Shown: positions 1-16,779 of the stretch, piece after piece
How positions within the stretch are numbered: the stretch's first letter is position 1
Layout of the letters: every line of letters starts with the position of its first letter
Assembly: GCA_024227475.1 (NCBI GenBank)
Contig: JAAEUI010000005.1
Location: 1-64,000 of the forward strand
Direction of reading: 5' to 3'
DNA length: 64,000 nucleotides
Origin: Paracoccaceae bacterium
GTDB lineage: Bacteria > Pseudomonadota > Alphaproteobacteria > Rhodobacterales > Rhodobacteraceae
The notes under the pieces: model-generated
What the model was told of the DNA's origin: nothing
The model's database searches: none
What the model saw: only the letters and a program-made list of their open reading frames with translations
Program-made: the position numbers and the translations under genes

Positions 1-145
1 AGCCCACCTCCGGCGCATCGGGGCCAGAACATTCGACCACCTCTTCAAAGCGATCGGCGACATTTGTGACCTCTACACGCCAGAAGAATGCTGGAACTAC
101 TTCAAAGCCGCAGGATATGTGTCAACGTAATGTGGAAACGCCTTA
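1..145 (+). mobile_element. IS630-family element, right end only
   Basis: The first 145 bases hold the 3' end of an IS630-type transposase gene followed within 15 bases by a plausible element terminus (GGAAACGCCTTA at 134-145) that ends in TA, the dinucleotide that IS630 elements target and duplicate. The left part lies outside the window. After this point the reading frame continues into DUF3131 protein sequence, so the element seems to sit inside that gene. The exact terminus is inferred from the TA and from similarity to the ends of the palindromic repeats elsewhere in the window. Confidence 0.7.
2..130 (+). CDS. IS630-family transposase, C-terminal end (partial)
   Basis: A frame open from base 2 to the TAA at 128-130 encodes 42 residues: [11 protein letters not shown], then [16 protein letters not shown], then [15 protein letters not shown]. 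The pattern ICDLxxPxECxNYFxxAGY is the usual C-terminus of IS630-family DDE transposases. The catalytic residues lie upstream, outside the window, so whether the full gene is intact cannot be judged. The stop codon overlaps the ATG at 130 of the DUF3131 remnant frame. Confidence 0.75.
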
Positions 146-921
146 AAGGCTTTGCCCTCTGGGGTTTCAAACCCTATTTCGCGCATCGGGCCGAACCCTA
201 TCTGACAACGAATATTTTTGGCGTCCGGGTACCTTATGATGGCCGGGACCCAAGGGTGTTTCATTCCCAGAACTACGTTGTTACCGAGAGTTATCTGCTC
301 GATGGGCTGGAACTGAACTGGGATCTGCCACATGACGACAGCAGTTCGGACCGGGTTCATTCGGACGGTTGGCGGGCAGAGTTTGCCGATCGGATCTATC
401 AGGTTCAGCACAACCGGTTTGAACGCCAGGGCTTCATGACCGCGCGCTCCGAACACAACGTCAAGGGCCCGCCCTATTTTACCTATGACACCATTTTTTC
501 AGATGGTTACCCCTGGAACACAGTAACACCCAGGGGCGATTATTCACCAGACCACGCCGCTGTGGCGACCAAGGCGGCCTTTGGTCTCTGGGCTCTTTGG
601 GACACCTATTATACCGATATTCTCTATGATGCGGTCATTGAGTTGTTCAACCCTGATCGCGGGTTTTACGAAGGCCTTTATGAAACCGGCGGCGGTCATA
701 TCGAAATTCAGACCGCCAATAACAACGGTATTCTGCTGGCCTCACTTTTGCACAAAGTTCAGGGGCGTATTCTGACGCCCGGCCGGGGTGGGTCTGAAGT
801 CTGGTACACCAGCTTTCGAGATCGTGACATCCGGATCGTGCGGAAACTCCCGGATCCCCCGCAAAAGGCTGATTGGCTACCGGCCTACCGGCATCCCGCA
901 CAATTGGAGGAAACCCAATGA
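130..921 (+). CDS. DUF3131 domain protein, 5' end lost to IS630 insertion
   Basis: This frame encodes the C-terminal part of a DUF3131 protein, with typical segments such as WALWDTYYTDILYDAV and GFYEGLYE followed by a terminal GGHIEIQTANNNGILLASLLHK stretch split here by description only. DUF3131 proteins are thought to be periplasmic and glucoamylase-like; their function is not established. Genuine family sequence begins only after about base 146; the ATG at 130 and an earlier ATG at 88 lie in insertion-sequence DNA, so any start here is accidental and no signal peptide remains. The stop overlaps the next ATG (ATGA, 918-921), which shows the gene was translationally coupled to the secreted protein downstream. 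Probably a truncated, non-exported remnant; the open frame suggests a recent insertion. Confidence 0.65.
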   Translation: MWKRLKGFALWGFKPYFAHRAEPYLTTNIFGVRVPYDGRDPRVFHSQNYVVTESYLLDGLELNWDLPHDDSSSDRVHSDGWRAEFADRIYQVQHNRFERQGFMTARSEHNVKGPPYFTYDTIFSDGYPWNTVTPRGDYSPDHAAVATKAAFGLWALWDTYYTDILYDAVIELFNPDRGFYEGLYETGGGHIEIQTANNNGILLASLLHKVQGRILTPGRGGSEVWYTSFRDRDIRIVRKLPDPPQKADWLPAYRHPAQLEETQ

Positions 922-2585
922 CTTCTGTTCTTAAACCCATGAAGGGTGCGGTGTGCGCGGTGCTTCTGATATTGCCCAATACAGGCCTTGCGCAGATCAA
1001 CAGCCAGTCCGGGAGCGAACAGTCTACCGCAATTCTTGACACAGCGGTGTTGTTTGCCATTGGTGCGCGCGAAGCGGAGCAGGCAATCCGCGGGTCCTTC
1101 GGCTGGCCAACATTTCAGGAGGGGTTTGTTGAAGGGGTCTATTTCCGGTTTGATCCCGACGGATATGCCCGGTTCAGCCCAAGCCCGCGACTGGACGAGG
1201 ATGTATTCGAGGTGGTTTGCGCTGAAGCAAGCACCGCTTGTGTGGCCAAGAAATCGGTGCTCGAGGTGGGGCTGACGGTCGCCGGGCAGGTGCAGATCAA
1301 GATCAATGGAATCACCCCGAACGACAGCTTTTTTGTGTCAGACAGAAAATCCGAGCTGCCGCTTCCTGCGGCGATTCTGGGCCCGCTGGACCCAAGGCTT
1401 GAGGCGTTGCTCGCAGGTGGCGGGGAGCTGATTGTGAAGCGGGAAATCGAGCTGGTTCAATCCGTGTCGCTGGCGGGGTTTTCGGCTGTCTCCACTTATC
1501 TGCGTTGGGTTGCGCAGAACCAGTCGCCCAGAATATTCCCACGTGGCTGGCCAGTACCCGCGCAGTCTCAAAACCAGGTTGTTTCTGGTCTGACGCAGCC
1601 CAACCAGTGGGAGTCTCCCAATTCCGTGCCCCAAACGCTGCAAACCACCTGGCACAACCAAAAGCCGCTCTCGACGGCAGGTTCGGGATCGAATTTCAAT
1701 GCCCAGCAACGAAACGGTGCCGGGTCAACTTCGCAGGTCGATTTGCTGCAACAACAAATACTGATGCTTCAGCAGAGCCTGCAGCAGATGCAGGCCGGGG
1801 CGCCCAATGACAATGGGGCCGGGCTGACGCTTGCCGGGGCGACCAATTCCGGAAACCGCCTGCAGGAATTCGGGCAGTCTTTTGCGCAACAGGCGCAAGG
1901 GCGTAACCTGCCTGCGACCGCCGGGGGGCTGGGTGTAGGCGGGGATTCGGCGACGGCGTATAATCAGGGCGGTCAATGGCCGTCCTCAGGCGGGGACTTT
2001 GCAGAGGCCCAGACCGGCACCAGACAAAGCGGTTCGCAAGGCTGGCCAGTTGAAAACGGTCAAACCCTCAATGACGTGTTTCAGCGGCTGGAACGTGTTG
2101 AACGGTCAATTCTCGATATGCGGCGCGATTTTTCCCTTCAGGTCTTTGAGCTCAAGGACATGGTGCACAACCGTGCACCGGTGGGCACCTTGCAGGCCAC
2201 GGCTCCGAGCGAGGGTTCGCTAAAACCGGAAATTGGCAGACAAACCGCCGGAGCAACGGCTCCGGCAGAGGACCCGGCCCGCATTCTGGCGGAACTGGAA
2301 AAAACTCTGCTGAGTCGGCTTGGAGGCCAAAATCTGGCTGTTTTGAGCGAGGCTCAGTCTGCATCGACTGATCCCAATAGCGTTACGCTGGACCGGCGAT
2401 TGATCGAGGATATTCTTGCAGAACTCGGGCAGGCTGAGGGCGTCGCAGGTGCGAATGCAGCCACCGAACCAACCGCGCAACCCATGCAACCGGCCGGGGA
2501 ACCCGAAGGTTTCGTGACCCTGAGCGATTATATCAATCAGGTTCTACGCCAGGAGGGGCTGGAGGCGCGGGAACCGGGGCGTTGA
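918..2585 (+). CDS. Secreted Gln/Asn-rich protein of unknown function
   Basis: The protein has 555 residues. The start is the ATG at 918, preceded by GGAGG at 906-910 and overlapping the stop of the DUF3131 gene. Residues 1-26 (MTSVLKPMKG to TGLAQ) form a signal peptide, so the product is periplasmic or exported. An ordered N-terminal part of about 195 residues is followed by a low-complexity Q/N/G-rich stretch, a probable coiled coil (LNDVFQRLERVERSILDMRR), and an acidic, alanine-rich tail. I do not recognise the family. Its place between DUF3131 and an ABC/HlyD pair suggests it is part of, or a client of, that envelope machinery; this is inference. Confidence 0.7.
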   Translation: MTSVLKPMKGAVCAVLLILPNTGLAQINSQSGSEQSTAILDTAVLFAIGAREAEQAIRGSFGWPTFQEGFVEGVYFRFDPDGYARFSPSPRLDEDVFEVVCAEASTACVAKKSVLEVGLTVAGQVQIKINGITPNDSFFVSDRKSELPLPAAILGPLDPRLEALLAGGGELIVKREIELVQSVSLAGFSAVSTYLRWVAQNQSPRIFPRGWPVPAQSQNQVVSGLTQPNQWESPNSVPQTLQTTWHNQKPLSTAGSGSNFNAQQRNGAGSTSQVDLLQQQILMLQQSLQQMQAGAPNDNGAGLTLAGATNSGNRLQEFGQSFAQQAQGRNLPATAGGLGVGGDSATAYNQGGQWPSSGGDFAEAQTGTRQSGSQGWPVENGQTLNDVFQRLERVERSILDMRRDFSLQVFELKDMVHNRAPVGTLQATAPSEGSLKPEIGRQTAGATAPAEDPARILAELEKTLLSRLGGQNLAVLSEAQSASTDPNSVTLDRRLIEDILAELGQAEGVAGANAATEPTAQPMQPAGEPEGFVTLSDYINQVLRQEGLEAREPGR

Positions 2586-2652
2586 AGAGCAGCTCTCACC
2601 CGGCCGCAGACCAATCAGGCAACCGAATTAGAGTGATACGGGACCCAGTTAA

Positions 2653-4587
2653 ATGAACATCACTGAACAGGCACCGGCAACCGGCCATTCTGCCGCCAAT
2701 GAGGCCCTTAAACAGAGTGCCAAGGCCGAAAAATACCGGGATTCACCTCCCTATTGGGTGCGGCTGGTTTCGGGGTTTCTTGGCTTTTTTTCAAGCCTTC
2801 TTGCGCTCAGCATACCAGCCATTGTCCTGTTGCTGATTGATCGGTCGATCTCTGCCGGAAACACATCTGCGCTGCCAGCCCTGCTGGCGCTTGGGTTCGG
2901 AACCATTCTTTCAGTGTGCCTGATTGATCTGATGCTCATGAAGGCGCTGGAAAACTATTTCTCCAATGTCCGTGGGCTGGTGCTGTTTCAGGATGCCTGT
3001 TTCGCCGCTTTCTGGGCCTTTGCGATCCTGTTCATTCACCCGCTTCTGGGTGTGGCCGCTGCAACCAGCGGTGCAGTTCTGTATTTGTTGTGGCGGTTTC
3101 GGAGCGCCAAGAAGACCTCCTCGGGCGGGATCAGCAAGACGCTGGATGTAGACCCACTGTCGATTGAAACAGTGGGTCTTGGAGCGGCCTACGTGCAAAA
3201 AGCGTCGCTTGGTGAGATTTCAACCGAAGAACAGCCTGATTTTCAGACCGTGGGACAAGCGACGCTGCTGAACTTCATCCAGATGCTGAGCGCTCTGATA
3301 ATGCTGTTTTCGGCGATCTGGCTGCACATGATCGGGCAGATCTCGCTGGGCACCGGTATCGCTGCAATTTTCCTGAACCAGTATGTGGTGAATGTGTTTG
3401 TCCGGTGTTTCCAGGTGCAGTCTCTGAAACCACCTGCGCCGGATCTGTCATTTTTTGCGCTGGTGGAAAACATGGAAAACCCCGATACCCATCCGCGCCC
3501 TTCTGCCGATGTGGGGCCAGTGCTTCTTTCAGTAGAGAATCTTGAAAACGAGGGCTTTCAACCCCTTTCGGTAGATGTTTTTCAGGGCCTCTGCCTGACC
3601 CTCATTGGCCCCTCGGGTTCAGGAAAATCAAACGTGCTTCGGGCGATAGCAACCGGTGCATTTTCGGAGGGCAAAATTTCCTACAAGGGGCGAAACTGGG
3701 GCCGCAATCACGGCCGGTTCCAATCGCTGAGCTATGTGCCGCCAACTCCGGTAACGATGGATGGTTCGCTGGTCGACAACGTCACCTGTTTTGATCCGAT
3801 GGCAGACCAGCTTTCAGCCATTGAGCTGATCCGCAAGCTCGACCCCTATGAAGACGTTTTTCAGGCATCGGATTTTCTGAATGACTCGGTGACCAATAAT
3901 TTCAGTGCTCAAGGCCAGATTTTATCTCTTGCCCGGGCGTTTTGGCTGAACCGCGAAATCATCGTCCTGGATTCGCCGGAAACCTATCTCGATAAGGCCT
4001 CACTATCTGCTCTGATGGCGCTGACCCTGCAGGCCAAGACCGACGGCAAGATTGTGCTGTTGGCGACCGATAATGACTATCTGATGTCCGCCGCAGATGA
4101 CGTCATTAAGCTGGAGCGCGGTCATATTACCGACCGGGGGCCCAAGGACGAAGTGCTGGCGCGGCATCATGCCCGCTGGGTCCGGGTGTCGTTCCTGCCA
4201 ACCAAACGCGACGCTTTTCGCCTCTCGCTCTGGCTCGACACCCAGTTTCCCGAGGGCATGGAGCAGGCCTTGCAATCCCGGGTGAAAAGGGCGGCACAGG
4301 ACATGCTGTTTTTGGCGCCCAGGGATCGGATTCTGAACTCAAATGATGAAATCCTGTTTGACGTGAAAATGAGCCAGACCGAGGTTTTTGTCACCATGCA
4401 TGACCGGGGCGACGTGATCCAGGCGGAGCATCTGGAGAACGCCGAGAATGAAGGCCTTGAGGATTTTGCCCGGATCGTAAATTCGGTGGATGGAATTGAC
4501 CAGACGTTGCGCGAGGGTTTCCGCCAGTTTTCAACCCGGTTTACCGCAGATGGCGCTGCCTCTGATCCTCAGGTTGCGGAGGGCTGA
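2653..4587 (+). CDS. ABC transporter-like protein (type I secretion type) with degenerate ATPase motifs
   Basis: The protein has 644 residues: a short membrane half (hydrophobic segments at roughly 36-62, 72-96, 113-147 and 205-250), a nucleotide-binding domain at about 290-490, and an unassigned C-terminal extension of 150 residues. The layout resembles PrtD/HlyB-type export ATPases that pair with HlyD adaptors. Walker A is intact (GPSGSGKS, 319-326). The Q-loop reads YVPPTP (361-366) without glutamine, the signature reads FSAQGQ (417-422) in place of LSGGQ, Walker B reads IIVLDSPE with serine at the catalytic glutamate position (441), and the switch histidine is aspartate (LLATD, 473). ATP may be bound but efficient hydrolysis looks unlikely. 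The HlyD gene follows after one base. The family assignment is firm, but the role is unknown. Confidence 0.8.
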   Translation: MNITEQAPATGHSAANEALKQSAKAEKYRDSPPYWVRLVSGFLGFFSSLLALSIPAIVLLLIDRSISAGNTSALPALLALGFGTILSVCLIDLMLMKALENYFSNVRGLVLFQDACFAAFWAFAILFIHPLLGVAAATSGAVLYLLWRFRSAKKTSSGGISKTLDVDPLSIETVGLGAAYVQKASLGEISTEEQPDFQTVGQATLLNFIQMLSALIMLFSAIWLHMIGQISLGTGIAAIFLNQYVVNVFVRCFQVQSLKPPAPDLSFFALVENMENPDTHPRPSADVGPVLLSVENLENEGFQPLSVDVFQGLCLTLIGPSGSGKSNVLRAIATGAFSEGKISYKGRNWGRNHGRFQSLSYVPPTPVTMDGSLVDNVTCFDPMADQLSAIELIRKLDPYEDVFQASDFLNDSVTNNFSAQGQILSLARAFWLNREIIVLDSPETYLDKASLSALMALTLQAKTDGKIVLLATDNDYLMSAADDVIKLERGHITDRGPKDEVLARHHARWVRVSFLPTKRDAFRLSLWLDTQFPEGMEQALQSRVKRAAQDMLFLAPRDRILNSNDEILFDVKMSQTEVFVTMHDRGDVIQAEHLENAENEGLEDFARIVNSVDGIDQTLREGFRQFSTRFTADGAASDPQVAEG

Positions 4588-4588
4588 C

Positions 4589-5926
4589 GTGTTCCGGTGG
4601 AGGAAGCGACCAAGGAACCCGGACAAGCCTCCGAGGACGGATACCGACGTGCTGGTTGCCATGCGCGCGGCGCGCACCCTGACGCGCATGCACATCAGCG
4701 CGACCTTTGCACTGGCTTTGGCATCGCTGGTCTGCGTTTTAGGGTTGTTCGGAGCGATTTTTACCCTGCAAAATCAAACGGTAGATCATGTTCTTCGCGT
4801 GAACGGAGTGTTGCAGGCGATCGAGCAGTCAACCCCGGTAACCCATAATACCGGGGGTGTGGTTTCCAACGTTTTTGTCACTAATGGCGAGATCGTGACT
4901 GAAGGGCAAATCCTGATGTCGCTGGATGCCAGCGACATTGAGGAGGAACTTCAGACCGCGCAACGAGCGGTTGTCGGGTTGATGCTGCAGTCCTTGTGCC
5001 TGCAGGCAGAGTTGAATGCCCGGACTGAATTTCAGGTGGCGCCAGAGTTACGCGTCGCGCTTGGGCGGTTGAACCAGATTGAAAAGCTGCAGCGCTCTGT
5101 ACGGGACTGCAAACTGCACCTGCGGCAGGTTGCTTTGCAAAAGCTGAAGCAGCACAGCGGTTTGGTCAGCTTGCAGGACCAGGTTAATATCCACACCCGC
5201 CTGTCTGGTGCTGACCGGTCTTTGCGTGGGCGCCTGAGGCAGGTCGCACAGGAGCCAGGCGGAGAAGAGTTGCAGGAGATCCTGAGTCTGCAAAGCCTGA
5301 CAAAGACATTGCGGAATTCGCTCAAGCACGCGGAACTGCGCAAACAACTGATCGACTACCAGGTCAAAACGGAAACCGCCAAACTGGAGGCTGAGACGAA
5401 ATTGCGCAGGAGGCTTGACCAGATCACGGATGGCCTGGCGGCAGCTGAAGCCCGTTTGGCCGAATTGGATCAACTGAAACAGAACCGCTTTGTTTATGCA
5501 TCAGACAGCGGGCGGGTCCAGCGTTTGCGTGTTAAGGAAGGTGGCAAACGCATTGCCCGGGGAGCTTACATCCTCGAAATCGCCCCGCTGACCACGGACT
5601 TTGAGGTTCTGGCAACTGTTTCAGTTGCCGATCTTTCTTATGTCCGGGTTGGTCAGCCGGTCACTGTCGGTCTGTCCTCCGGCCTGCCGCGCCCGGTTTT
5701 TGTCCCTGCTGTCATCGCCCGCATAACCAAGGCGACTGAAAATACCCGCGCGTTGTCAATCGCGATAGCTAGGGAAAGCCTCAACAAACGTGACCTGCTG
5801 ATAGGTGACCGGTCGCTGAACGGGCTCGGTGAACGTTCGGAAGCGTTGATTGAGGTACAGGCCGAAAACGCTTTTAGGTCTCTTAGGCGGATTCTGACCG
5901 CCCAATTTGTCCCGGAGCCGGTCTGA
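4589..5926 (+). CDS. HlyD-family membrane fusion (adaptor) protein
   Basis: The product has 445 residues with a GTG start at 4589, one base after the ABC gene stop; GGAGG at 4578-4582 inside that gene serves as ribosome-binding site. A cytoplasmic tail is followed by one membrane segment (about 37-60). A biotinyl/lipoyl-like half (VTHNTGGVVSNVFVTNGEIV) comes next, then a long helical hairpin rich in Leu/Gln. The second lipoyl half (SGRVQRLRVKEGG) and a beta-barrel (ADLSYVRVGQPVTVGL) complete it. This is the layout of type I secretion adaptors, which bridge inner-membrane ABC protein and TolC. No TolC gene is in the window. Coupling to an apparently inactive ABC partner is odd. Confidence 0.85.
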   Translation: MFRWRKRPRNPDKPPRTDTDVLVAMRAARTLTRMHISATFALALASLVCVLGLFGAIFTLQNQTVDHVLRVNGVLQAIEQSTPVTHNTGGVVSNVFVTNGEIVTEGQILMSLDASDIEEELQTAQRAVVGLMLQSLCLQAELNARTEFQVAPELRVALGRLNQIEKLQRSVRDCKLHLRQVALQKLKQHSGLVSLQDQVNIHTRLSGADRSLRGRLRQVAQEPGGEELQEILSLQSLTKTLRNSLKHAELRKQLIDYQVKTETAKLEAETKLRRRLDQITDGLAAAEARLAELDQLKQNRFVYASDSGRVQRLRVKEGGKRIARGAYILEIAPLTTDFEVLATVSVADLSYVRVGQPVTVGLSSGLPRPVFVPAVIARITKATENTRALSIAIARESLNKRDLLIGDRSLNGLGERSEALIEVQAENAFRSLRRILTAQFVPEPV

Positions 5927-6032
5927 CCAGTTCCTTCCGGTGGTCTTTTTGGGCGAAACCCATCAATCAAATTTGCACCGACTCGCCACATCTGCGAGGT
6001 TTGGCAAAAGTTTGCCTGCAGAGGATTTCGAC

Positions 6033-9000
6033 ATGAGTATTAAGCAACTGATTACTGCCCTTTCCACCGGAACAGTTTTGGCACTGAATGTTCCGCTTGC
6101 CGGGTTAGCACAGACCGACAGCCCGCCGATCCCGGAGCGGCGGATCGAGATGTTTCAGAGCACCGACTTTTTTGGCTCTGATCTGCGCAACATTTTTGAT
6201 GTAACTTATGAAAGCTGCGAGGCCCAGTGCCTGGCGGACAAGGCCTGTAAGGCATTCACCTACAACATAAAATCCTCTGCGTGTTTCCCGAAATCGGCGG
6301 TTGGTGAAAGCTCGACTTTCGAGGGCGCAACCTCAGCGGTGGTGATCGATGCGGACCCGGTCATGATCGAGAAATCTCGACAGCGGGCTGCCGATCTGGA
6401 GTTTCTGCCCGGCAAGTACCTGCACTCAGCCACTCGCGTGGCGCGGCGCAACGGCTCCTATTACCCGACAAATGGCTGGACGGCCCCCAATCTGACTGAT
6501 CTGGCCAACGAACGCGAGGCTGCGGGCAATCCGAAGCGGGCGATTGAACTCCATCTTGCAGCTTTAAACAACGTTGACAGCGCAGGTGGCTGGATAGAGG
6601 TTGCCCGGATTGCCAACGCCACGAAAACCAAAGACAGCGGCCTTCGCCGTTTCCTGAAAGACATGGCACCTTCGGCGGCGATCAACGGCTTTCTGCGGGC
6701 CCGCAATTCGCAAGCCCAGGCGACGGCACTGAGTGAGCTGGCTCAGGCACTGGAGAAGGCCAATCGGGGCCGGTTGTCGATTCCGGTGCTGCGGCTGGCT
6801 TATGACCGGGCCCCGCGCAAGGAAATCGCAGAAGCGATAGACCGGGCGGTGGCTCTGTATGGGTTCCGGGTGACGGATCACCGGGTGGACCACAACGCGC
6901 TGCAACCCCGTATCTGCGCCGAGTTTTCGGAATCCCTGGTCAAGGCCGGCGTTGATTATACCGATTATGTGAAAATCGGCCAAGTCGGCCTGGCGGTGGA
7001 GGCCGAAGGTCGGCAACTGTGTATTGAAGGGGTGAAACACGGGCAGAACTTGCGGGTCACGCTGCGCAAAGGTTTGCCTGCGGGTACTGGCGAGTCGCTG
7101 TATAAATCCGTTGATCTGAACGTCTATGTCCCGGACCGCGATCCCAGTGCCCGTTTTACCGGACGCAGCTATGTGCTGCCAAAGCGTGACGGTGCCACCA
7201 TCCCGATCACTTCGGTAAACCTCAGCCGTGTTGGCCTGAACATCTACCGGATCGGAGACCGCAATATCCTGCGCACAATCCAGGCCGGTCTGTTTCGCAA
7301 CCCGGTGTCAAAATGGGAACTGGGCGATTTGCGTTGGGAACTTGGGCAAAAGGTCTGGTCCGGCGAGGCTGACCTTGAGATTGAGCTGAATCGGGAAGTG
7401 ACAACTGCTTTGCCGATCGGTGAGGCGATCAAAGAATTTGAACCCGGCGTTTATGCCATGACCGCACAGGACCCGGGCGAGGAGGTCGATGGATCGCTTT
7501 CGACCCAGTGGTTTGTTGTGACCGATCTGGGAATTTCCACGATGGTTGGGAACGATGGCCTGCACGTCTTTGCCCGTTCGCTTGGCAGCGCAGCACCGGT
7601 GGGCGCGGCGAAGGTTCAGCTGCTGGCGCGGAATAATATCGTTCTGGGTGAGGGAACGACGGATGCCAGTGGTTATGCGCATTTCCCGGCTGGTCTTGTG
7701 CGCGGCAAATCCGGCAATTCTCCGGCGCTTGTGACAGTCGAAACAACAGCCGGTGACTTTGCATTTCTGGATCAGGCGGCGGCTGAATTTGACCTGTCTG
7801 ACCGGGGCGTCGCGGGCCGACCGGCACCGCCTCCGATTGACGTTTTTCTTGCAACCGACCGGGGGGCATACCGCCCCGGCGAGGACCTTCACACCACGCT
7901 TTTGTCGCGCGACCACAAGGTTGCTGCTTTAGCTGACCTGCCTTTGACGATGACGCTGATCAGACCAGACGGTGTGGAATTTGCGAGTCGGCTTGTGTCC
8001 GATGCGGGCGCTGGTGGGGGAACTGCATCGTTTAACCTGCCGGGCAACGCCAAACGCGGAACGTGGAAACTACGGGTTTACGCTGACAAAGAGGCGGATC
8101 CCCTGTTGGAACGGCGCATTCTGGTCGAGGATTTTGTGCCAGAACGGATCGATTTTGACTTAACGGTGGCAAATGCTCCGGTGCGCGCCACGGATACAGC
8201 AGTGATTTCGGTAAAAGCGCGGTATCTCTATGGTGCACCGGGGGCTGATCTGGCGGCAGAGGGTGAGGTAAAGCTGACGGCGGCATCCGGGCTGAAAGGG
8301 TATCCTGGGTACAAGTTTGGCCGGAGCGATCAGTATTTCAACCCGCGGTATCAATCTCTTGATTACGCCCCCCGCACAGCGGATGACGGCAGCCTGGAGT
8401 TGTCGATGAACCTGCCCGTTGCAGAAGACGCCAACCGGCCGCTGGCAATGGAAGCCTTCGTGCGGTTGCGTGATGGCTCGAGCCGCCCGGTTGAGCGGCG
8501 CATAAAGAGCGCGCTGGAGCCTTCCGGGCCGATGGTTGGGATCAAACCCCTGTTTGATGGACAAGCCGGGGAGGGCAGCCTTGCCGAATTTGATGTGATC
8601 GCTGTCGGGACTGGTGGCAAGCGCATTACGCTTCCTCGCGTTGGTTGGGTTCTGAACAAAATCCGCACGAGGTACCAGTGGTACGAAAGCTATGGTGACT
8701 GGTCGTATGAGCCGGTGACCCGGCGTGAACGGATCGCCTCTGGCGAAGTGTCGCTGTCGGCCACAGATCTGGCCCGGATTTCGGGTCAGGTGGAATACGG
8801 CCGGTACGAATTGAAACTGACCAACCTGTCGGAGCCCTTTGTTGTCAGTTCTTACCAGTTTTCTGCCGGATGGTATGTGACTTCTGGTTCGGAGAATACC
8901 CCGGACACCCTGCAGATGGCACTGGACCGCGGCAGCTATGCTGTTGGTGACACCGCCAAATTGCGCATCGAGTCCCGGTTTGATGGTGTGGCCCGGATAT

Positions 9001-11498
9001 CGCTGTTGAGCGACCGCCTGATCAGTACGCGCACGGTCAACATCAATGCGGGCGCGAATGCGATTGACCTTGTGGTGACAGAGGATTGGGGCGCTGGTGC
9101 CTATGTTACGGCAACCGCGATCCGGCCAATGGACGTGGCGGCAGGGCGCAACCCGTCGCGCGCGCTTGGGCTGGTGTTTGCCAAGGTTGATCCCGGAGCG
9201 AAACTGTTGCGGACTGAATTCGTCAGCCCCGCGGAGGCGCAGCCACGCACAACGATGACGACGCGGTTGAAAATTGACGGTATCACGCCGGGGCAAAAAG
9301 CCTATGCAACAATCGCCGCCGTGGATGTGGGTGTTCTGAACCTCACCGCCTTTGAAACGCCCTCACCGGATGATCACTATTTCGGCCAGCGTCGGCTTGG
9401 TGTGGGGATCCGTGATGTTTACGGGCGGTTGATTGACGGGTTGCAGGGGCGCAGCGGGCGCCTGCGCTCGGGAGGGGACAGCAACGCAGCGCAAAAGCTG
9501 AACAGCCCACCACCGTCCGAAGAGGTTCTGGCGTCCTTCTCAGGACTGTTGGTTGCCGATGAAAACGGAGAGGTTTCGGCTGACTTTGACCTGCCGGATT
9601 TCAACGGCACTGTACGCCTGATGGCGGTTGTCTGGTCCGATACGGCGGTCGGCCATGCAGAGCAGGACGTTCTGGTGCGCGATCCTGTTGTTCTGAGCGC
9701 GCACACGCCGCGCTTTATGACACCGGGCGACAAGGCCCTGGCGGTTGTGGAGATGGCGCATGTGTTTGGCCCGACCGGGGATTTCACCTTGCGGGTTAGC
9801 GGCGGAGAGGAGCTGCAGATGCCGCCGGTTCTGCAAACCGTTCAATTGGCGGACAAACAACGGTTGAGCCTGTCTGTACCGATTACCGCTATTGCCGCAG
9901 GTGCGCCGAAAATTGATATCGAAGTGCAGACACCGGGCGGAAGAACACTCCGTAAAACGGTTACTTTGGCTGTCCAGTACAACGACCCCGAAATCGCCCG
10001 ACAAACCCGGCTGGAACTGGCGGCTGGCGAAGCCTGGAATATCGACGCCAACACCCTGGCCGGGCTGCATCGCGGTACGGTTCATGCAAGTCTGGCGGTT
10101 GGGCCGCTGGCGCGGTTTGATGCGCCGGGGCTGCTATCTGCGCTCAACCGTTATCCCTATGGCTGCACAGAACAGATCACCTCCAAGGCCATGCCGCTGC
10201 TCTATTTCGAGCAGTTGTCCTCGGCACTTGGTCTTGCTAACCCTGCGGTTGTCAAGAAACGCGTCGCACAGGCCATCACAGGTGTTCTGTCAAATCAGGC
10301 AAGTAACGGAGCCTTCGGACTGTGGCGCCCGGATTCAGGAGATCTGTGGCTTGATGCCTACGTGACCGACTTCCTCAGCCGCGCAAGGGCGCAGGGCTTC
10401 GAGGTGCCTGACCGGGCATTTGAGCAGTCGCTGAACAACCTGCGCAACCGGGTGAATTATGCGCCGGATTTCGAAGACGGCGGTCAGGATGTGGCCTACG
10501 CGCTGATGGTGCTGGCGCGGGAAGGCAATGCGGCGATTGGGGATCTGCGATACTATGTCGATGCCCGGGCAGATGCCTTTGCAACGCCTCTGGCGAAAGC
10601 CCAGATGGGTGCCGCACTGGCCTCTTACGGAGATCAGTCAAGAGCCGACCGGATGTTCCGGCTGGCATCAAAACATATTCTGAAGCCTGAGCGTTCCAAA
10701 GGCTGGCGGTCCGACTATGGCTCCCACCTGCGTGATGCCGCAGCGCTTCTGACACTGGCTGTGGATTCAGGCAGCCTGGTGGTCGATCAGGAAGCGCTGG
10801 TTCGTGCAGTGACCCTGGGCCCGGTTGCTAATCGCTCGACACAGGAAAACCTCTGGTCGCTGATGGCGGCCAATGCGCTGGCACAAGGGGTGTCGCAGGG
10901 CAGCTTTTCGCTGAATGGATCGCCGATGACGGGACCTTTGGTGAAGTCGTTCAGCGAGGCAGATCTGAACCGGGGCCAGATCCTGCGCAACGACGGCGAC
11001 AAGCCGACAACGACCGTTGTAACGGTGTTTGGCATTCCCTCCGAACCCGAACCGGCGGGCGGTTCGGGCTACAAGATCGAGCGGGCCTACTACACGCTTG
11101 AGGGTACGCGGGTTGATCCCTCCTCCGTGGTGCAGAACACCCGGTTGGTTGCGGTGTTGAAAGTCACGCCATTCCGCAAGGCTGAAGCCCGGCTCATGAT
11201 CAACGATCCGTTGCCTGCCGGGTTCGAAATCGACAATCCAAACCTGATTGCTGGGGGTGATATCCGGGCGCTGGACTGGTTGGCGCTGAACACGGATATC
11301 GAATATTCCGAGTTTCGCACCGACCGGTTCCTGACCGCAGTGAACTGGAGCGGCACCCAGCCGTTCTCGCTTGCCTATCTGGTGCGGGCGGTTTCGCCGG
11401 GACGGTTCCATCATCCGGCGGCGTCGGTCGAGGATATGTACCGTCCTGCCTTCCGGGCGCGGACTGATGCGGGAACGCTGGAGGTGGTTAAAAACTGA
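6033..11498 (+). CDS. Bacterial alpha-2-macroglobulin with N-terminal PAN domain
   Basis: The protein has 1821 residues and a signal peptide (residues 1-27, ending AGLAQ) without a lipobox, so it is probably soluble in the periplasm rather than a lipoprotein like E. coli YfhM. A PAN/Apple-like Cys module follows (Cys62, 66, 72, 84), then a helical region, repeated macroglobulin beta-sandwich domains, and an alpha/alpha-toroid thioester domain. The thioester motif is CTEQ (Cys1378 to Gln1381, in YPYGCTEQ). Such proteins are thought to trap foreign proteases and are typically paired with PBP1C, as here: its stop overlaps the pbpC start. A 106-bp gap separates it from the HlyD gene. The ATG at 6033 was chosen because the signal peptide starts there. 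Confidence 0.9.
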   Translation: MSIKQLITALSTGTVLALNVPLAGLAQTDSPPIPERRIEMFQSTDFFGSDLRNIFDVTYESCEAQCLADKACKAFTYNIKSSACFPKSAVGESSTFEGATSAVVIDADPVMIEKSRQRAADLEFLPGKYLHSATRVARRNGSYYPTNGWTAPNLTDLANEREAAGNPKRAIELHLAALNNVDSAGGWIEVARIANATKTKDSGLRRFLKDMAPSAAINGFLRARNSQAQATALSELAQALEKANRGRLSIPVLRLAYDRAPRKEIAEAIDRAVALYGFRVTDHRVDHNALQPRICAEFSESLVKAGVDYTDYVKIGQVGLAVEAEGRQLCIEGVKHGQNLRVTLRKGLPAGTGESLYKSVDLNVYVPDRDPSARFTGRSYVLPKRDGATIPITSVNLSRVGLNIYRIGDRNILRTIQAGLFRNPVSKWELGDLRWELGQKVWSGEADLEIELNREVTTALPIGEAIKEFEPGVYAMTAQDPGEEVDGSLSTQWFVVTDLGISTMVGNDGLHVFARSLGSAAPVGAAKVQLLARNNIVLGEGTTDASGYAHFPAGLVRGKSGNSPALVTVETTAGDFAFLDQAAAEFDLSDRGVAGRPAPPPIDVFLATDRGAYRPGEDLHTTLLSRDHKVAALADLPLTMTLIRPDGVEFASRLVSDAGAGGGTASFNLPGNAKRGTWKLRVYADKEADPLLERRILVEDFVPERIDFDLTVANAPVRATDTAVISVKARYLYGAPGADLAAEGEVKLTAASGLKGYPGYKFGRSDQYFNPRYQSLDYAPRTADDGSLELSMNLPVAEDANRPLAMEAFVRLRDGSSRPVERRIKSALEPSGPMVGIKPLFDGQAGEGSLAEFDVIAVGTGGKRITLPRVGWVLNKIRTRYQWYESYGDWSYEPVTRRERIASGEVSLSATDLARISGQVEYGRYELKLTNLSEPFVVSSYQFSAGWYVTSGSENTPDTLQMALDRGSYAVGDTAKLRIESRFDGVARISLLSDRLISTRTVNINAGANAIDLVVTEDWGAGAYVTATAIRPMDVAAGRNPSRALGLVFAKVDPGAKLLRTEFVSPAEAQPRTTMTTRLKIDGITPGQKAYATIAAVDVGVLNLTAFETPSPDDHYFGQRRLGVGIRDVYGRLIDGLQGRSGRLRSGGDSNAAQKLNSPPPSEEVLASFSGLLVADENGEVSADFDLPDFNGTVRLMAVVWSDTAVGHAEQDVLVRDPVVLSAHTPRFMTPGDKALAVVEMAHVFGPTGDFTLRVSGGEELQMPPVLQTVQLADKQRLSLSVPITAIAAGAPKIDIEVQTPGGRTLRKTVTLAVQYNDPEIARQTRLELAAGEAWNIDANTLAGLHRGTVHASLAVGPLARFDAPGLLSALNRYPYGCTEQITSKAMPLLYFEQLSSALGLANPAVVKKRVAQAITGVLSNQASNGAFGLWRPDSGDLWLDAYVTDFLSRARAQGFEVPDRAFEQSLNNLRNRVNYAPDFEDGGQDVAYALMVLAREGNAAIGDLRYYVDARADAFATPLAKAQMGAALASYGDQSRADRMFRLASKHILKPERSKGWRSDYGSHLRDAAALLTLAVDSGSLVVDQEALVRAVTLGPVANRSTQENLWSLMAANALAQGVSQGSFSLNGSPMTGPLVKSFSEADLNRGQILRNDGDKPTTTVVTVFGIPSEPEPAGGSGYKIERAYYTLEGTRVDPSSVVQNTRLVAVLKVTPFRKAEARLMINDPLPAGFEIDNPNLIAGGDIRALDWLALNTDIEYSEFRTDRFLTAVNWSGTQPFSLAYLVRAVSPGRFHHPAASVEDMYRPAFRARTDAGTLEVVKN

Positions 11499-13555
11499 TG
11501 CGGCGTTTGGGGATATTCACCGGCGCGTTTTGCCTGTTGGCCCTGATCGGTGGCGGTTTGGTGGAGCGCTGGATTCAAACCACCGAATTACCGGGAATTG
11601 CGCTTTCGGTATCCCCGACAGTTGAGGATCGTAACGGCGACTTACTGCGGGCCTTTACCATTGCCGATGGCCGCTGGCGCTTGCCGGTGGCGCTGGACGA
11701 GGTGGATCCGGGTTACATCGCCCAGCTGATCGCTTTTGAGGACAAACGCTACTACCACCATGGCGGGGGTGATGTTCGGGCAATGATCCGGGCGACAGTA
11801 CAGGCCCTTTGGCGTGGTGAAATTGTCTCGGGCGGATCGACGCTGACAATGCAGGTTGCCCGGCTGCTGGAGCAGGGCGGCACCGGTTCGTGGCAGGGAA
11901 AACTGCGGCAAATGCGCGTGGCGCTGGCGCTGGAACGTCAGCTTGGCAAGGATGACATCCTGAACCTCTACCTGCTCCTCGCCCCTTATGGCGGTAATAT
12001 CGAAGGGGTTCGGGCCGCTTCACTCACTTATTTCCGCAAAGAACCCCGCCGGCTGACCGATGCCGAAGCCGCTTTGCTGGTCGCGTTGCCACAATCACCG
12101 GAGCGCAGGCGACCTGATCGCCGGATCAAGGCCGCCCATGCAGCCCGCGAACGCGTGTTGAACCGTATGGTTGGAGCGCATGTTCTGGCGCCGGATGCGG
12201 CACAGGCCGCTTTGCGAGAAGAAATCCCGGCGCAACGCAACGCCTTTCCCAACCACGCCCCCCATCTTTCCGAGCGGGTCATTCTGACGGGTGCACCAGG
12301 TACAACCCACCGGCTGAGCCTCGATAGGACGGTGCAATCCGCTGTTGAGACTTTGGTGAAATCGTATGTTCTGCCGCGCCACGCCAGCCTGTCGGCGGCG
12401 GTTCTTATCGTCGATCATCGGACCGGCGAGATCGTCACATCGGTCGGAGCGCCGGATTATCTTGACCAGGCGCGCTCCGGTTTCCTCGACATGACCCTGG
12501 CGGTCCGCTCGCCGGGGTCGGCGCTGAAGCCGCTGATTTATGGGCTGGCGTTCGAATCCGGCAGGGCACATCCCGAAACCATAATAGACGACCGTCCCTC
12601 CCGCTTTGGCACCTACGCGCCGCAGAATTTTGACAATCAGTTCCGCGGTGAGGTCCGCATTCGCAAAGCCCTGCAGATGTCACTGAACATCCCTGCGGTT
12701 GCTTTGCTGCAGGAGGTTGGCCCGCCCCAACTGATTGCCCGGATACAACGGGCTGGCGCGGTACCGCGGCTTCCGACGGACGAGCCCCCCGGTCTGGCGA
12801 TCGCTCTTGGCGGGCTTGGGATATCGCTCAAAGACATGGTCGCCATTTACGCCGCGATTGCCCGGGGCGGGGAGCCTGTGGAAATGACGTACAAGGTCAA
12901 GTCCGGCGTATCCGTGGCGCAACGCCAGCCGGTTCTCGGATCCCTTGCTGCGTGGTACGTGGCAGATATTCTGGCCGGCATGCCTCCGCCTGACAGCGCT
13001 TCGCGCAACGTGCTGGCCTATAAAACCGGCACGTCTTATGGTCATCGGGATGCCTGGGCCCTTGGTTTTGACGGGCGGCACACCATCGGTGTCTGGCTTG
13101 GGCGGCCGGACGGGGCAGCAATGCCGGGGGAGTTAGGCCGTGACCTTGCTGCACCGCTGTTGTTTGAAAGTTTCGCTTTGCTCAAACCCACGCCCGATCC
13201 GCTGCCAGTTGCGCCGGATGCTGCATTGACCGGAACAACCGCGCAATTGCCAACCCAGCTGCAACACTTCCGATCCGGTGGAGCCCTTACGTCCCGGCTG
13301 AACAACCCGAAAATCGCATTTCCGCCAGACGGAGCCCGGATTGATCTGGGTGAACCGGTTGGTGAGGATGCATTTCTTGCCCTGAAAGTCGCCAACGGCG
13401 CCCCGCCCTTTACCTGGCTCGCAAACGGACGCCCGGTGGAGGTCGCAAGCTTTGAGCGGCAAACAGTCTTTGTCCCGGATGGTCCCGGGCACCTGTCAAT
13501 CTCGGTGATTGACGCGAAGGGCCAGTCGCAACAGGTTGAGGTGGTACTGGAATAG
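11498..13555 (+). CDS. pbpC: Penicillin-binding protein 1C
   Basis: A bifunctional peptidoglycan glycosyltransferase/transpeptidase-type protein of 685 residues, anchored by an N-terminal membrane helix (about 5-22). The family 51 glycosyltransferase domain shows the catalytic Glu81 in AFEDKRYY and the SGGSTLTMQ motif (111-119). The transpeptidase domain has SALK (Ser341, Lys344), SLN (395-397) and KTG (509-511), all intact. A C-terminal BiPBP_C-like beta domain ends the protein. Its ATG overlaps the alpha-2-macroglobulin stop (TGATG), so the two are translationally coupled. In the YfhM-PbpC pairing, established for enterobacteria, the synthase is thought to repair the wall when a protease has breached the envelope. 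Confidence 0.95.
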   Translation: MRRLGIFTGAFCLLALIGGGLVERWIQTTELPGIALSVSPTVEDRNGDLLRAFTIADGRWRLPVALDEVDPGYIAQLIAFEDKRYYHHGGGDVRAMIRATVQALWRGEIVSGGSTLTMQVARLLEQGGTGSWQGKLRQMRVALALERQLGKDDILNLYLLLAPYGGNIEGVRAASLTYFRKEPRRLTDAEAALLVALPQSPERRRPDRRIKAAHAARERVLNRMVGAHVLAPDAAQAALREEIPAQRNAFPNHAPHLSERVILTGAPGTTHRLSLDRTVQSAVETLVKSYVLPRHASLSAAVLIVDHRTGEIVTSVGAPDYLDQARSGFLDMTLAVRSPGSALKPLIYGLAFESGRAHPETIIDDRPSRFGTYAPQNFDNQFRGEVRIRKALQMSLNIPAVALLQEVGPPQLIARIQRAGAVPRLPTDEPPGLAIALGGLGISLKDMVAIYAAIARGGEPVEMTYKVKSGVSVAQRQPVLGSLAAWYVADILAGMPPPDSASRNVLAYKTGTSYGHRDAWALGFDGRHTIGVWLGRPDGAAMPGELGRDLAAPLLFESFALLKPTPDPLPVAPDAALTGTTAQLPTQLQHFRSGGALTSRLNNPKIAFPPDGARIDLGEPVGEDAFLALKVANGAPPFTWLANGRPVEVASFERQTVFVPDGPGHLSISVIDAKGQSQQVEVVLE

Positions 13556-13766
13556 CCCGGTTACCCCAGCGGTTTGAAATTACCCAGATTTTCAGGGCCG
13601 CGATGTTCATAGTCAGAAGATCTACCGATGGCGCGAAACAACCCACAGAAGGTGAATTATGGGCTTTGCGCAGCTGATAAGGCACCGCTACCGGGGAGAA
13701 TACTCTACGTGTGGAACATTTGCAGTGCTAACAAACTGTTAACTGGAAACCGGAAAGGGATTTGAT

Positions 13767-14042
13767 GTGTCAAACGCCCACATAGCAATTCTGATCTTAA
13801 TGGGTTTAGCTTTCATTGTCTGGGCCGTTCTGTGGTTCCGTGCACTTTTCAAACTGAAACGCATCGCGGACCAGCGCAGGCAAGAGGCAGGGCGGGGGTA
13901 TTTTTCCGGCATGGGGGTTACTTTTTTAGTATTCGCCGAATTTCTGACAGCGCCGGAACACCGAAAAGACCGCAATCGGGTTGGGATCGCCACTGGTGCG
14001 GTTTTTGCAATTATCATCCTGCAGCTGGTTATGCTGCACTGA
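13767..14042 (+). CDS. Small two-helix membrane protein, unknown function
   Basis: The product has 91 residues: an N-terminal membrane helix (about 6-26), a basic central segment (KLKRIADQRRQEAGR), a short hydrophobic patch and a second membrane helix near the C-terminus (about 74-90). The start is GTG at 13767 with GGAAAGGG about 8 bases upstream; an ATG at 13765 is out of frame. It ends 15 bases before the FAD monooxygenase gene and may be co-transcribed with it. I do not recognise the family. Confidence 0.65.
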   Translation: MSNAHIAILILMGLAFIVWAVLWFRALFKLKRIADQRRQEAGRGYFSGMGVTFLVFAEFLTAPEHRKDRNRVGIATGAVFAIIILQLVMLH

Positions 14043-14057
14043 ACGAATAGGGAATAC

Positions 14058-15656
14058 ATGGCCAAAATCTTTGATACACCGCTTTACCCTTACACGCGCT
14101 CGCCAGATCAGGAGGAGACCACGCCGGTGCGCCACCCGGTTGTTGTTATCGGGGCCGGGCCGGTTGGAATGGCGGCGGCCATCGATCTGGCGCAGCAGGA
14201 TGTGCCGGTGGTTATTCTGGATGATGATGACAAAGTCAGCTTTGGTTCCCGCGCCATCAGTTTCGCCAAGCGACCGCTTGAAATACTTGACCGTCTGGGC
14301 TGCGGTCAGCCCATGGTCGACAAAGGTGAGATCTGGAATGTCGGCAAAGTATTCTTTGATAACCGCCGGATTTTCGAATTTAATTTATTGCCCGAAGACG
14401 GCCACAAGCGGCCCGCGTTCATCAATCTCCAGCAGTACTACCTGGAACAATACATGGTGGACCGGATTCGCGAACTGCAAGTCAAAGGTAAGCCGATTGA
14501 AATCCGCGGCAACAACAAAGTTGACGCCATCGGCAGCCACACGGATCACGTCACGCTGGAGATCGACACCCCGGACGGGCCCTATAACCTTGAAGCCGAC
14601 TGGCTGATTGCCTGTGATGGCGCCGGATCACCGACCCGCCGGATGCTGGGGCTCGATTTTGCGGGCCGGGTTTTTGAGGATAACTTCCTGATTGTCGACA
14701 CCATCATGGAGGCTGATTTCCCGACGGAACGCTGGTTCTGGTTCGACCCACCGTTCAACAGGGGCCAGTCTGCTCTGCTGCAAAAACAGCCGGACGACAT
14801 GTGGCGGATTGATCTGCAACTGGGCTGGGATATCGACAAGGAAGAAGAGCAAAAACCGGAAAACGTTATTCCAAGGCTCAGGACTATGCTGGGCGATGAT
14901 GTGAAATTCGAACTTGAGTGGGTGGCGATCTACACTTTCCAATGCCGCCGGATGGAGAAATTCCGCCATGGTCGGGTGTTGTTTGCCGGCGACGCGGCAC
15001 ATCAGGTTTCGCCCTTTGGCGCACGAGGTGCGAATGCGGGCCTGCAGGATACCGACAATCTGATCTGGAAGCTTAAGCTGGTGATCGACGGAACTGCGCC
15101 AGACAGCCTGCTGGACAGTTACGATGTCGAACGGGTTTATGGTGCGGATGAGAATATCAAGAATTCCTCTCGCTCGACCGATTTCATCACCCCGAAATCG
15201 AAAATGGACCGGACTTTCCGCGATGCAGTGCTGGAACTTGCGGAAACCAATGAATTTGCCCGCCCGATGGTCAACTCAGGGCGCCTGTCTGTGCCCTGCA
15301 CCTATGACGGATCGTGTCTGAACGGACATGACGAACCTGATCTGCCCGAGCACACCCGGGTTGGCGGACCGCTGGTTGATGCGCCCGTCGGTAAAGACTG
15401 GCTGACGGACTTGACCGGCAACCGGTTCCAGATCCTTGCCATCAACTCGGAGGTTGAACCGGTGGAGGTCAACGGAGTGTCGGCAGATGTGCTGAAGGTC
15501 AGTACCGCAGACGCGCCCCTTGTTGGCGAACGGTATCTTGGAGGAGCTGACGCGGCGGTTTATCTGTTGCGGCCCGATCAGATCGTGGCGGCCCGCTGGA
15601 AAGAAGCAAAACCTGCCGACATAGAAGCGGCAATGAACACGGCGATGGGAGGCTGA
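14058..15656 (+). CDS. FAD-dependent aromatic-ring-hydroxylase-type monooxygenase
   Basis: The product has 532 residues. A Rossmann FAD-binding motif lies at the start (VVVIGAGPVGMAAAIDL, Gly-rich loop at 32-37), and the second FAD motif is RVLFAGDAAHQVSPFGARG (Gly311-Asp312), as in the PheA/TfdB/MhpA group of flavin monooxygenases. The C-terminal 120 residues look like the thioredoxin-like domain of that group. The substrate cannot be named from sequence; a phenolic or 3-hydroxyphenyl-acid-like substrate is plausible by family. The following DUF2783 gene starts one base after its stop, a pairing common in alphaproteobacteria. Confidence 0.85.
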   Translation: MAKIFDTPLYPYTRSPDQEETTPVRHPVVVIGAGPVGMAAAIDLAQQDVPVVILDDDDKVSFGSRAISFAKRPLEILDRLGCGQPMVDKGEIWNVGKVFFDNRRIFEFNLLPEDGHKRPAFINLQQYYLEQYMVDRIRELQVKGKPIEIRGNNKVDAIGSHTDHVTLEIDTPDGPYNLEADWLIACDGAGSPTRRMLGLDFAGRVFEDNFLIVDTIMEADFPTERWFWFDPPFNRGQSALLQKQPDDMWRIDLQLGWDIDKEEEQKPENVIPRLRTMLGDDVKFELEWVAIYTFQCRRMEKFRHGRVLFAGDAAHQVSPFGARGANAGLQDTDNLIWKLKLVIDGTAPDSLLDSYDVERVYGADENIKNSSRSTDFITPKSKMDRTFRDAVLELAETNEFARPMVNSGRLSVPCTYDGSCLNGHDEPDLPEHTRVGGPLVDAPVGKDWLTDLTGNRFQILAINSEVEPVEVNGVSADVLKVSTADAPLVGERYLGGADAAVYLLRPDQIVAARWKEAKPADIEAAMNTAMGG

Positions 15657-15657
15657 T

Positions 15658-15852
15658 ATGGCGGAACTAAAAACAACACCGAATATCGCATATGCTGATG
15701 ATTTCTATGCCGATCTTCTGGCGGTGCACGAGGGGTTGAGCGAGAAAGAAAGCGAGGCGCTGAACGCGCGGTTGATCCTGATTCTGAGCAATCATATCGG
15801 AGATCGGGAAGCCTTGGGCGGAGCGTTGGCTTTGGCGGCAACACCAAAATAA
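15658..15852 (+). CDS. DUF2783 domain protein
   Basis: A 64-residue acidic protein with the central pattern YADDFYADLLAVHEGLS and a second helix LNARLILILSNHIGD. It matches the small DUF2783 family, which is nearly always found directly behind a FAD monooxygenase like the one upstream. The ATG is one base past the preceding stop. The function is unknown; a subunit or stabilising partner of the monooxygenase is a reasonable inference. Confidence 0.8.
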   Translation: MAELKTTPNIAYADDFYADLLAVHEGLSEKESEALNARLILILSNHIGDREALGGALALAATPK

Positions 15853-15856
15853 CGGG

Positions 15857-16615
15857 TCAGAAAAACCGGTTCCGGTCTTCGTTGACTCGTTTTCGACCGG
15901 AGGCGGTTACTTCCCATGCCGAGTTACCGGCAAGTACAATTGCCGATAAACTGTAACCCCAGGCCGCCCCGGTATCTATGTTGATGCGGTTGCCATAATG
16001 GGTGACTTTGTCGACGGGTGTATGGCCGTGAATGATCAGTTTTTCGTGCGGTTCGGTCCAGTTGTGAAACGGCGCACGAATCCAAAGCAGATCGTCTTCT
16101 GTCTGTTCCGCCAATGGGCGGTCTGGTAAAATACCAGCATGGCAGAAGAAATGGGATGAGGTTTCAAAACTGAGCGGGAGGTGTTTGAGAAACCTGAAAT
16201 GCTCGGGTGGAACCGCCGCGACTGCTTCGTGATGCAGAACCGACATGGGTTTGTCGCCCCCGTAGTGAACACCGTATGAGGCCAGCGTTTCCCGGCCCCC
16301 CATACTGGGATGAAGCCAAGTATAGTCAGAGCGAAGCACCGGGTCCTTCTTTTGCGCGTCTTCCAGAAAATCAGTGAACAGCCGGTCATGGTTGCCCTTC
16401 ACTACGACCCAGGGCTGGCCATTTTTTATCCCGTGAAGCAAAAACTCAACGACCCCTTTACTGTCTTGGCGGCGATCCACCAGATCACCGACATGGACAA
16501 TGCTGTGGTCCGAGACCTTGAACTCGGCGATGTCCATTTCAATAAAGCGATGCACAGCCCTGAGCTGGTTTAAATCGCCATGGATATCGCCGATTGCATA
16601 AACAGCACTGGTCAT
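15857..16615 (-). CDS. PPP-type metallophosphoesterase (serine/threonine phosphatase-like)
   Basis: The product has 252 residues when started at the ATG at 16615 (MTSAVYAIGDIHGDL). The frame is open further upstream into the GAPDH gene, but the conserved domain begins directly at this start. Metal-binding and catalytic motifs of the PPP superfamily are present in order: GDIHG, GDLVDRR, GNHD and HGHTP. Members dephosphorylate proteins or small phosphorylated compounds; the substrate is not predictable. The ribosome-binding site is weak. It is convergent with the DUF2783 gene, with only 4 bases between their stops. Confidence 0.85.
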   Translation of the reverse strand: MTSAVYAIGDIHGDLNQLRAVHRFIEMDIAEFKVSDHSIVHVGDLVDRRQDSKGVVEFLLHGIKNGQPWVVVKGNHDRLFTDFLEDAQKKDPVLRSDYTWLHPSMGGRETLASYGVHYGGDKPMSVLHHEAVAAVPPEHFRFLKHLPLSFETSSHFFCHAGILPDRPLAEQTEDDLLWIRAPFHNWTEPHEKLIIHGHTPVDKVTHYGNRINIDTGAAWGYSLSAIVLAGNSAWEVTASGRKRVNEDRNRFF

Positions 16616-16779
16616 TAATGGGCCTGACACCTGTTCGAACTTCTTGTCAGCATTCACTGTGCATGTAACCCCTTCTGCCATGCAACAGCTTTCTGATTTT
16701 AAACCGCTTTTGCCCGATGGAAAAACCGAAGGCGGCAGCCCCGGCGGACCTGCCATCGATTCGGGCTGAGGTGCGCGGG

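Follow-up and report, generated by a model that had tools for sequence, protein, structure and literature searches.

Six consecutive forward-strand genes open the window analysed here, a stretch of 64,000 nucleotides at positions 1 to 64,000 of contig JAAEUI010000005.1 (C5) from a Paracoccaceae bacterium (GCA_024227475.1). A first-pass annotation had suggested that they could form one envelope-protection machine combining a DUF3131 protein, a secreted-looking protein (hereafter SEC), a dead-looking ABC exporter, an HlyD adaptor, an alpha-2-macroglobulin (A2M) and penicillin-binding protein 1C (pbpC). Comparison with relatives divides them into two adjoining modules. One is the known A2M-pbpC pair; the other is a portion of an undescribed set of genes that probably makes a surface polysaccharide. 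The suggestion of an undescribed system survives for DUF3131, SEC, ABC and HlyD, together with five genes beyond the contig end, and falls for A2M-pbpC. Among the matches listed, no paper on this gene system was found in the open-licence literature.

Gene order and co-occurrence among relatives

Window genes 1–4 are the tail of a nine-gene locus. In loci fetched from 13 relatives of the same genus, the order is caspase, OmpA, then acyltransferase, STAS, RsbW-type kinase, DUF3131, SEC, ABC and HlyD, with each gene present in 12 or 13 of the 13. Locus L029 is without the acyltransferase, and L040 reaches its contig end before the HlyD position; an HlyD-type gene adjoins the ABC gene in the other 12. 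In the genome under study, contig C602 supplies the caspase, OmpA, acyltransferase, STAS and kinase genes before DUF3131, five locus genes that had been invisible to the first-pass annotation because the contig ends. ABC orthologues were found in 14 of 33 genomes of the genus, this one included; the other 13 share 45–79% identity with the window protein, and two of them (G019, G001) are partial or broken. The relatives with the locus include Amylibacter ulvae (L042). A decayed locus, in which acyltransferase, STAS and a kinase gene with an internal stop are left, occurs in G010.

The A2M-pbpC pair behaves differently. A2M is likewise found in 14 of the 33 genomes, in some of them in pieces, and no association with the ABC gene was detected (both genes in 4 genomes, ABC only in 10, A2M only in 10, neither in 9; p=0.29). 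Genomes G006, G014 and G018 hold both genes on different contigs, and only in the genome under study do they adjoin. A tie between A2M-pbpC and the ABC, HlyD and DUF3131 genes in relatives is contradicted by the 13 same-genus ABC loci, none of which has A2M or pbpC in view, several of them ending at contig ends that limit this view. In five genomes without ABC genes (G003, G004, G015, G027 and G031), A2M-pbpC lies directly behind a STAS-kinase pair, with 81–170 bp to the opened A2M frame; STAS, RsbW-type kinase, A2M and pbpC stand in a row at loci L054, L055, L056, L057 and L067. A regulator shared by A2M-pbpC and the polysaccharide locus is possible, because the pair directly follows a STAS-kinase pair of the same type in these five genomes. 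A2M is placed behind other genes in G010, G014, G018 and G029. In the A2M tree this genome falls in a clade with G018, G010 and G014 (support 98/97), to which the G003 group is sister; an ancestral A2M at the STAS-kinase site followed by movement and separate insertions both fit.

The module itself is a separate, known protease-trap and wall-repair pair. Bacterial A2M of the CxEQ class has been described as juxtaposed to a PBP1c gene in the available sections of PMC3328433, and the window shows the features of this class I arrangement, namely A2M domains with the CxEQ thioester motif (found also in 13 of 13 A2M sequences longer than 1000 aa) and an adjacent PBP1c gene with active-site motifs. 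The E. coli ECAM (YfhM)/PBP1c pair is alike in having a CxEQ A2M next to a PBP1c gene, whereas the window A2M carries an N-terminal PAN domain, has other neighbours and by eye shows no lipobox. Export of A2M through ABC/HlyD need not be invoked, the protein beginning with a stretch that by eye resembles a signal peptide.

A degenerate ABC exporter that co-occurs with a synthase and a STAS-kinase pair

The description of the ABC protein as dead-looking was accurate and holds for every homologue aligned. Among 21 aligned homologues (13 from the same genus, eight from other genera) Walker A is retained in all, whereas the catalytic Glu is replaced throughout by Ser, Gln, Met, Thr, Val, Ala or Arg, the switch His of the H-loop is missing at its aligned position in every sequence (L052 has a His one residue later), and none carries an LSGGQ signature. 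Left out of these counts were L040, whose ABC protein is truncated, and the controls L023 and L026, which were read in the wrong frame through the choice of the longest open reading frame (ORF). The controls L025 and L027 keep Glu and His in the same alignment, with signatures LSGGM and LSGGQ, respectively, and Walker B is intact in eight further exporters; two intended controls, L022 and L024, turned out to be pseudo-ABC proteins themselves (loci L170 and L166) and stand outside the 21. The complete ATPase site of a type I exporter (Walker B Glu, H-loop His and signature) is absent from the ABC protein, and the residues lost indicate that this conserved protein is not a normal pump. An idea formed by eye, that its C-terminal domain is RsbW-like, was dropped, since profile comparison gave a probability of 0.9% and sequence scans of Pfam and the PDB lent no support. 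Structure predictions from four-row alignments were too poor to be used (mean pLDDT 34.7 for DUF3131 and 40.7 for ABC).

At its start SEC has what by eye looks like a signal peptide, and the alignment of 13 members shows a conserved N-terminal domain, a variable Q/N-rich middle and a conserved C-terminal motif. No consistent Pfam match was obtained in these 13, and a PDB scan gave no useful match; SEC may bear some resemblance to the invasion protein IalB. The family is rare, with 13 of 390 sampled genomes of the order and 5 of 139 genera, to which G033 adds one more genus.

A putative polysaccharide synthase of the cellulose-synthase-like GT2 type co-occurs with the locus. GT2 was found in 13 of 14 genus genomes with the ABC locus and in 3 of 19 without it (p=1.3e-5; p=2.5e-4 if the broken copies in G009, with two stops, and G010, in fragments, are scored present and not absent), the genomes being related by descent, so that the p values are only a guide. 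G005 was scored as GT2 present and ABC absent, though it carries a locus of the other-genus type with a pseudo-ABC of its own. At a completeness of at least 90%, the counts are 9 of 9 with the locus and 1 of 15 without. Within the window's genus, GT2 is unlinked to the ABC locus. In all nine GT2 loci fetched there, a DUF3131 gene follows and a divergent gene of one cluster adjoins, which proved to be a REC-SpoIIE phosphatase in 3/3 scanned; a small gene comes next after GT2-DUF3131 in eight loci and is an Hpt gene in 2/2 scanned. Outside this genus, 6 of the 9 loci in view combine SEC, DUF3131 and ABC genes with GT2 and a further DUF3131 gene (the GT2 domain was checked by scan in L045), and GT2 with a second DUF3131 gene is likewise found in L166 and L170. 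From the GT2, acyltransferase and nucleotidyltransferase genes we infer polysaccharide synthesis.

The nucleotidyltransferase is seen as a STAS domain fused to a sugar-nucleotidyltransferase-like protein at L045:15181-17010, L049:14970-16499 and L051:15158-16618, all on the minus strand. The fusion was recognized by Pfam in L045 and by similarity in L049 and L051; L170 has only STAS and hexapeptide parts. The DSSG motif is missing from all three fusions. A second polysaccharide-looking locus of the genome under study, L006:2348-8639, encodes an 867-aa DUF3131 protein and a 1241-aa protein that by eye resembles a deacetylase-GT2 fusion.

The STAS and kinase genes of this genome lie on C602, outside the window. 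The phospho-site motif DSSG (MDSSGLGA) is present in 19/19 STAS proteins, and the ATP-binding boxes are invariant in 14/14 RsbW-type kinases. A kinase of this type was matched, with varied strength, in 97 of 120 family genomes (one per genus). Among the 29 best non-own kinase loci, a gene of what we take to be a thiolase cluster flanks the pair in 23, and a presumed gamma-glutamyltransferase-like gene follows in 23; on C602, too, the locus is flanked by this thiolase-type gene. Eight family STAS-kinase loci read over 19 kb contain no A2M, pbpC or pseudo-ABC gene, and the five genomes of the G003 type, like G023, have a STAS-kinase pair but no ABC genes. The pair is older than the surrounding operon, because it is family-wide and retained where the ABC genes are lacking.

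With a phosphorylatable Ser in the STAS protein and ATP boxes in the kinase, the pair looks like rbaVW. RbaV, RbaW and RbaY of Rhodobacter capsulatus are a STAS protein, an RsbW-type kinase and a REC plus PP2C phosphatase, and the two-hybrid tests made in that species gave no sigma-factor partner of RbaW, according to the available sections of PMC3999984. The likeness is one of architecture, in the STAS protein and the kinase and, in relatives, in the REC-phosphatase encoded beside GT2, with a neighbourhood of the pair conserved across the family. RbaVW of R. capsulatus is a two-gene operon linked to the gene transfer agent and stationary phase, whereas here the pair is inside the ABC/DUF3131 operon.

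Layout of the window and the interrupted DUF3131 gene

Re-reading of the ORF coordinates upheld the tight packing that had been noted at 130–13555, with, in order, a 4-bp overlap, gaps of 67 bp, 1 bp and 106 bp, and a 1-bp overlap. The named domains were also recovered (DUF3131, ABC_tran, HlyD, PAN-A2M and PBP1C), except that the DUF3131 gene is a 3' fragment and not intact. For a promoter at 5927–6032, which had been raised as a sign of separate transcription, a sigma-70 scan of 1–15000 gave three sites, all on the minus strand and fewer than the shuffled mean of 5.1, and, covering the sigma-70 type only, says little.

Features at the left end of the window
Feature	Position	Strand	Basis
Insertion sequence end interrupting the DUF3131 gene	1..143	+	Inverted repeats and TA in common with the insertion sequence end on C602; in-frame empty site; 42-residue C-terminal reading frame
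DUF3131 gene, 3' fragment (first annotated as 130–921)	144..921	+	Profile positions 174–367 of 367; ORF opens at 88
SEC, secreted-looking protein	918..2585	+	Alignment of 13; no consistent Pfam family
Pseudo-ABC exporter	2653..4587	+	Walker A present; catalytic Glu and H-loop His gone, signature degenerate, C-terminal extension
HlyD-type membrane-fusion protein	4589..5926 (ORF opens at 4490)	+	PF13437 (HlyD_3), E=3.9e-11
A2M with N-terminal PAN domain and CTEQ thioester motif; separate module	6033..11498 (ORF opens at 5907)	+	Domain scan, motif
pbpC, penicillin-binding protein 1C; separate module	11498..13555	+	NCBIfam TIGR02073, 625.9 bits (cut-off 494.2); active-site motifs present

The DUF3131 gene is disrupted by an insertion sequence in this genome. 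The window begins at the end of contig C5, in an assembly of 657 contigs that is 79% complete, and the 5' part of the gene (profile positions 1–176) lies near the end of contig C602, followed by another insertion sequence end. The two ends carry the inverted repeats AAGCGTTTCCA / AGGCGTTTCCA plus a common TA, and when 60 bases from either flank are joined, the reading frame runs unbroken, as in a relative; intact DUF3131 proteins of the locus in relatives measure 606–643 aa. Ranked by bit score, G018 and then G014 give the best matches to both halves. We take the element to be IS630-like; its 42-residue C-terminal piece had no match in Pfam. With its DUF3131 gene interrupted and no synthase found, the system may be decaying in this genome.

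An assembly chimera at the HlyD-A2M joint is conceivable, with two observations against it. To the right of the inserted genes, the window continues with the cobD block found behind the locus in relatives, and the gene following pbpC, for an FAD-dependent oxidoreductase, has a counterpart of 76% identity in G010, there too downstream of A2M-pbpC. The interval 14058–17781, which separates pbpC from the cobD block, holds this oxidoreductase gene, a metallophosphoesterase gene and a GAPDH-type gene. Elsewhere in the genome, two types of adenine deaminase are encoded (contigs C602, C69 and C492); one shares 80% identity with the G003 group, and the other is closer to G018/G010, which may reflect either horizontal transfer or a mixed assembly. 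A gene at L005:4472-5701, presumably aroC-like, is split into two ORFs of 124 and 283 aa, either by sequencing error or as a broken gene.

Proposed mechanism and competing explanations

We propose that the nine-gene locus, together with the GT2, second DUF3131, Hpt and REC-SpoIIE phosphatase genes that relatives encode elsewhere, forms a polysaccharide synthase system tied to a partner switch, in which the ABC/HlyD assembly binds ATP but does not hydrolyse it. A2M-pbpC would be independent of this system. We judge this composite proposal, built on sequence comparison, about evenly poised between right and wrong. GT2 would make and extrude the polysaccharide, the DUF3131 proteins would trim or transfer glycan of the polymer, and the acyltransferase would decorate it. 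The pseudo-ABC and HlyD proteins would form an envelope assembly that binds ATP without hydrolysis and acts as a scaffold or gate. The STAS protein, its phosphorylation governed by kinase and phosphatase, would switch the output. A2M-pbpC would be an independent protease-trap and wall-repair pair that shares the chromosomal place.

Several observations weigh against this proposal. Neither GT2 nor the REC-SpoIIE phosphatase was found in a search of the 79%-complete assembly of this genome, which one assembly gap and real loss both fit, and in G028 and G029, which carry GT2, no ABC locus was detected. Outside the genus, the HlyD-like proteins are poorly matched, with no Pfam match for L045, none above the cut-off for L166 and only L170 above it. 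Simple patterns for the catalytic caspase motifs were matched by only 8 (GHG) and 9 (DxC) of 14 proteins, this genome included, and caspase activity is therefore uncertain. The STAS-kinase pair, family-wide and retained without the operon, may serve other targets, by which the case for its serving the operon is weakened, not removed. A glycan-enzyme role of DUF3131 is a weak assignment from one PDB entry, 8wy1, which its profile matches at E=0.013 over only ~90 positions. This match constitutes the likeness to GH189 and the clan GH-S beta-1,2-glucan enzymes, a family described in the available sections of PMC10834661 and PMC12102758; those of PMC12102758 do not name DUF3131.

As a further, unlikely step suggested by analogy, the pseudo-ABC protein could be the membrane target of the RbaV-type STAS protein, which in unphosphorylated form would dock on the ATP-bound pseudo-ABC and open or close an ABC-HlyD gate through which the GT2 polymer would cross the envelope. 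In MlaFB, the STAS protein MlaB binds the ABC domain with its phospho-site residue at the interface; MlaFEDB, however, drives lipid trafficking, and the available sections of that paper report no experimental evidence of MlaB phosphorylation (PMC7367683). The STAS protein SypA and the serine kinase SypE control polysaccharide in Vibrio fischeri, and the target of SypA is stated as unknown in the available sections of PMC10120452, where SypE is a three-domain response regulator and no ABC protein is named as SypA target.

The single envelope-protection machine, in which ABC, HlyD and SEC would place the macroglobulin or a glycan enzyme or else secrete it, draws on the tight forward-strand spacing and on products that by eye look membrane-bound or secreted. 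We consider it highly improbable: A2M is in view in none of the 13 fetched ABC loci, the two genes show no positive association, and each of the three other genomes with both has them on separate contigs. It is also improbable that the ABC protein is half of a heterodimeric type I exporter with its partner elsewhere, secreting SEC or another protein needed for the polysaccharide, the part that ExpD1/ExpD2 play for ExpE1. The adjoining HlyD partner gene speaks for such an exporter, and ExpD1/ExpD2, an ABC and a membrane-fusion protein tied to the galactoglucan of S. meliloti in the available sections of PMC1403797, resemble the window pair in joining ABC and HlyD-type proteins to a polysaccharide. 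The window ABC protein, however, is without the catalytic residues, and pairing with an intact subunit would probably give no canonical site, because both the Walker-B/H-loop side and the signature side are degenerate. In the genus loci mapped, the adjoining genes include no intact ABC exporter, and SEC has its own signal-peptide-like start.

The STAS-kinase pair might also, or mainly, control A2M-pbpC as a defence against envelope damage, with the polysaccharide genes as passengers. This would be compatible with the proposed synthase system, and we find it improbable. The five genomes with STAS, kinase, A2M and pbpC in a row but no ABC genes favour it, as does the position of both modules behind the STAS-kinase pair in this genome. 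Set against these are the genomes in which A2M-pbpC lies elsewhere, the eight family loci with no A2M or pbpC nearby, and the 13 ABC loci with no A2M-pbpC in view.

For A2M-pbpC the outcome is a correction, the striking neighbourhood of the window being absent from every relative examined. In the nine-gene locus, a STAS-kinase pair shares its operon with one definite candidate for a membrane target, and in relatives the co-occurring synthase has a phosphatase built like RbaY next to it, which makes the open question of the target experimentally addressable. As part of a polysaccharide gene set, the conserved dead ABC exporter would show this fold in an unusual role, and the STAS-gated pseudo-ABC, if true, would mean that a partner switch acts straight on a gate derived from a transporter and not on a sigma factor.

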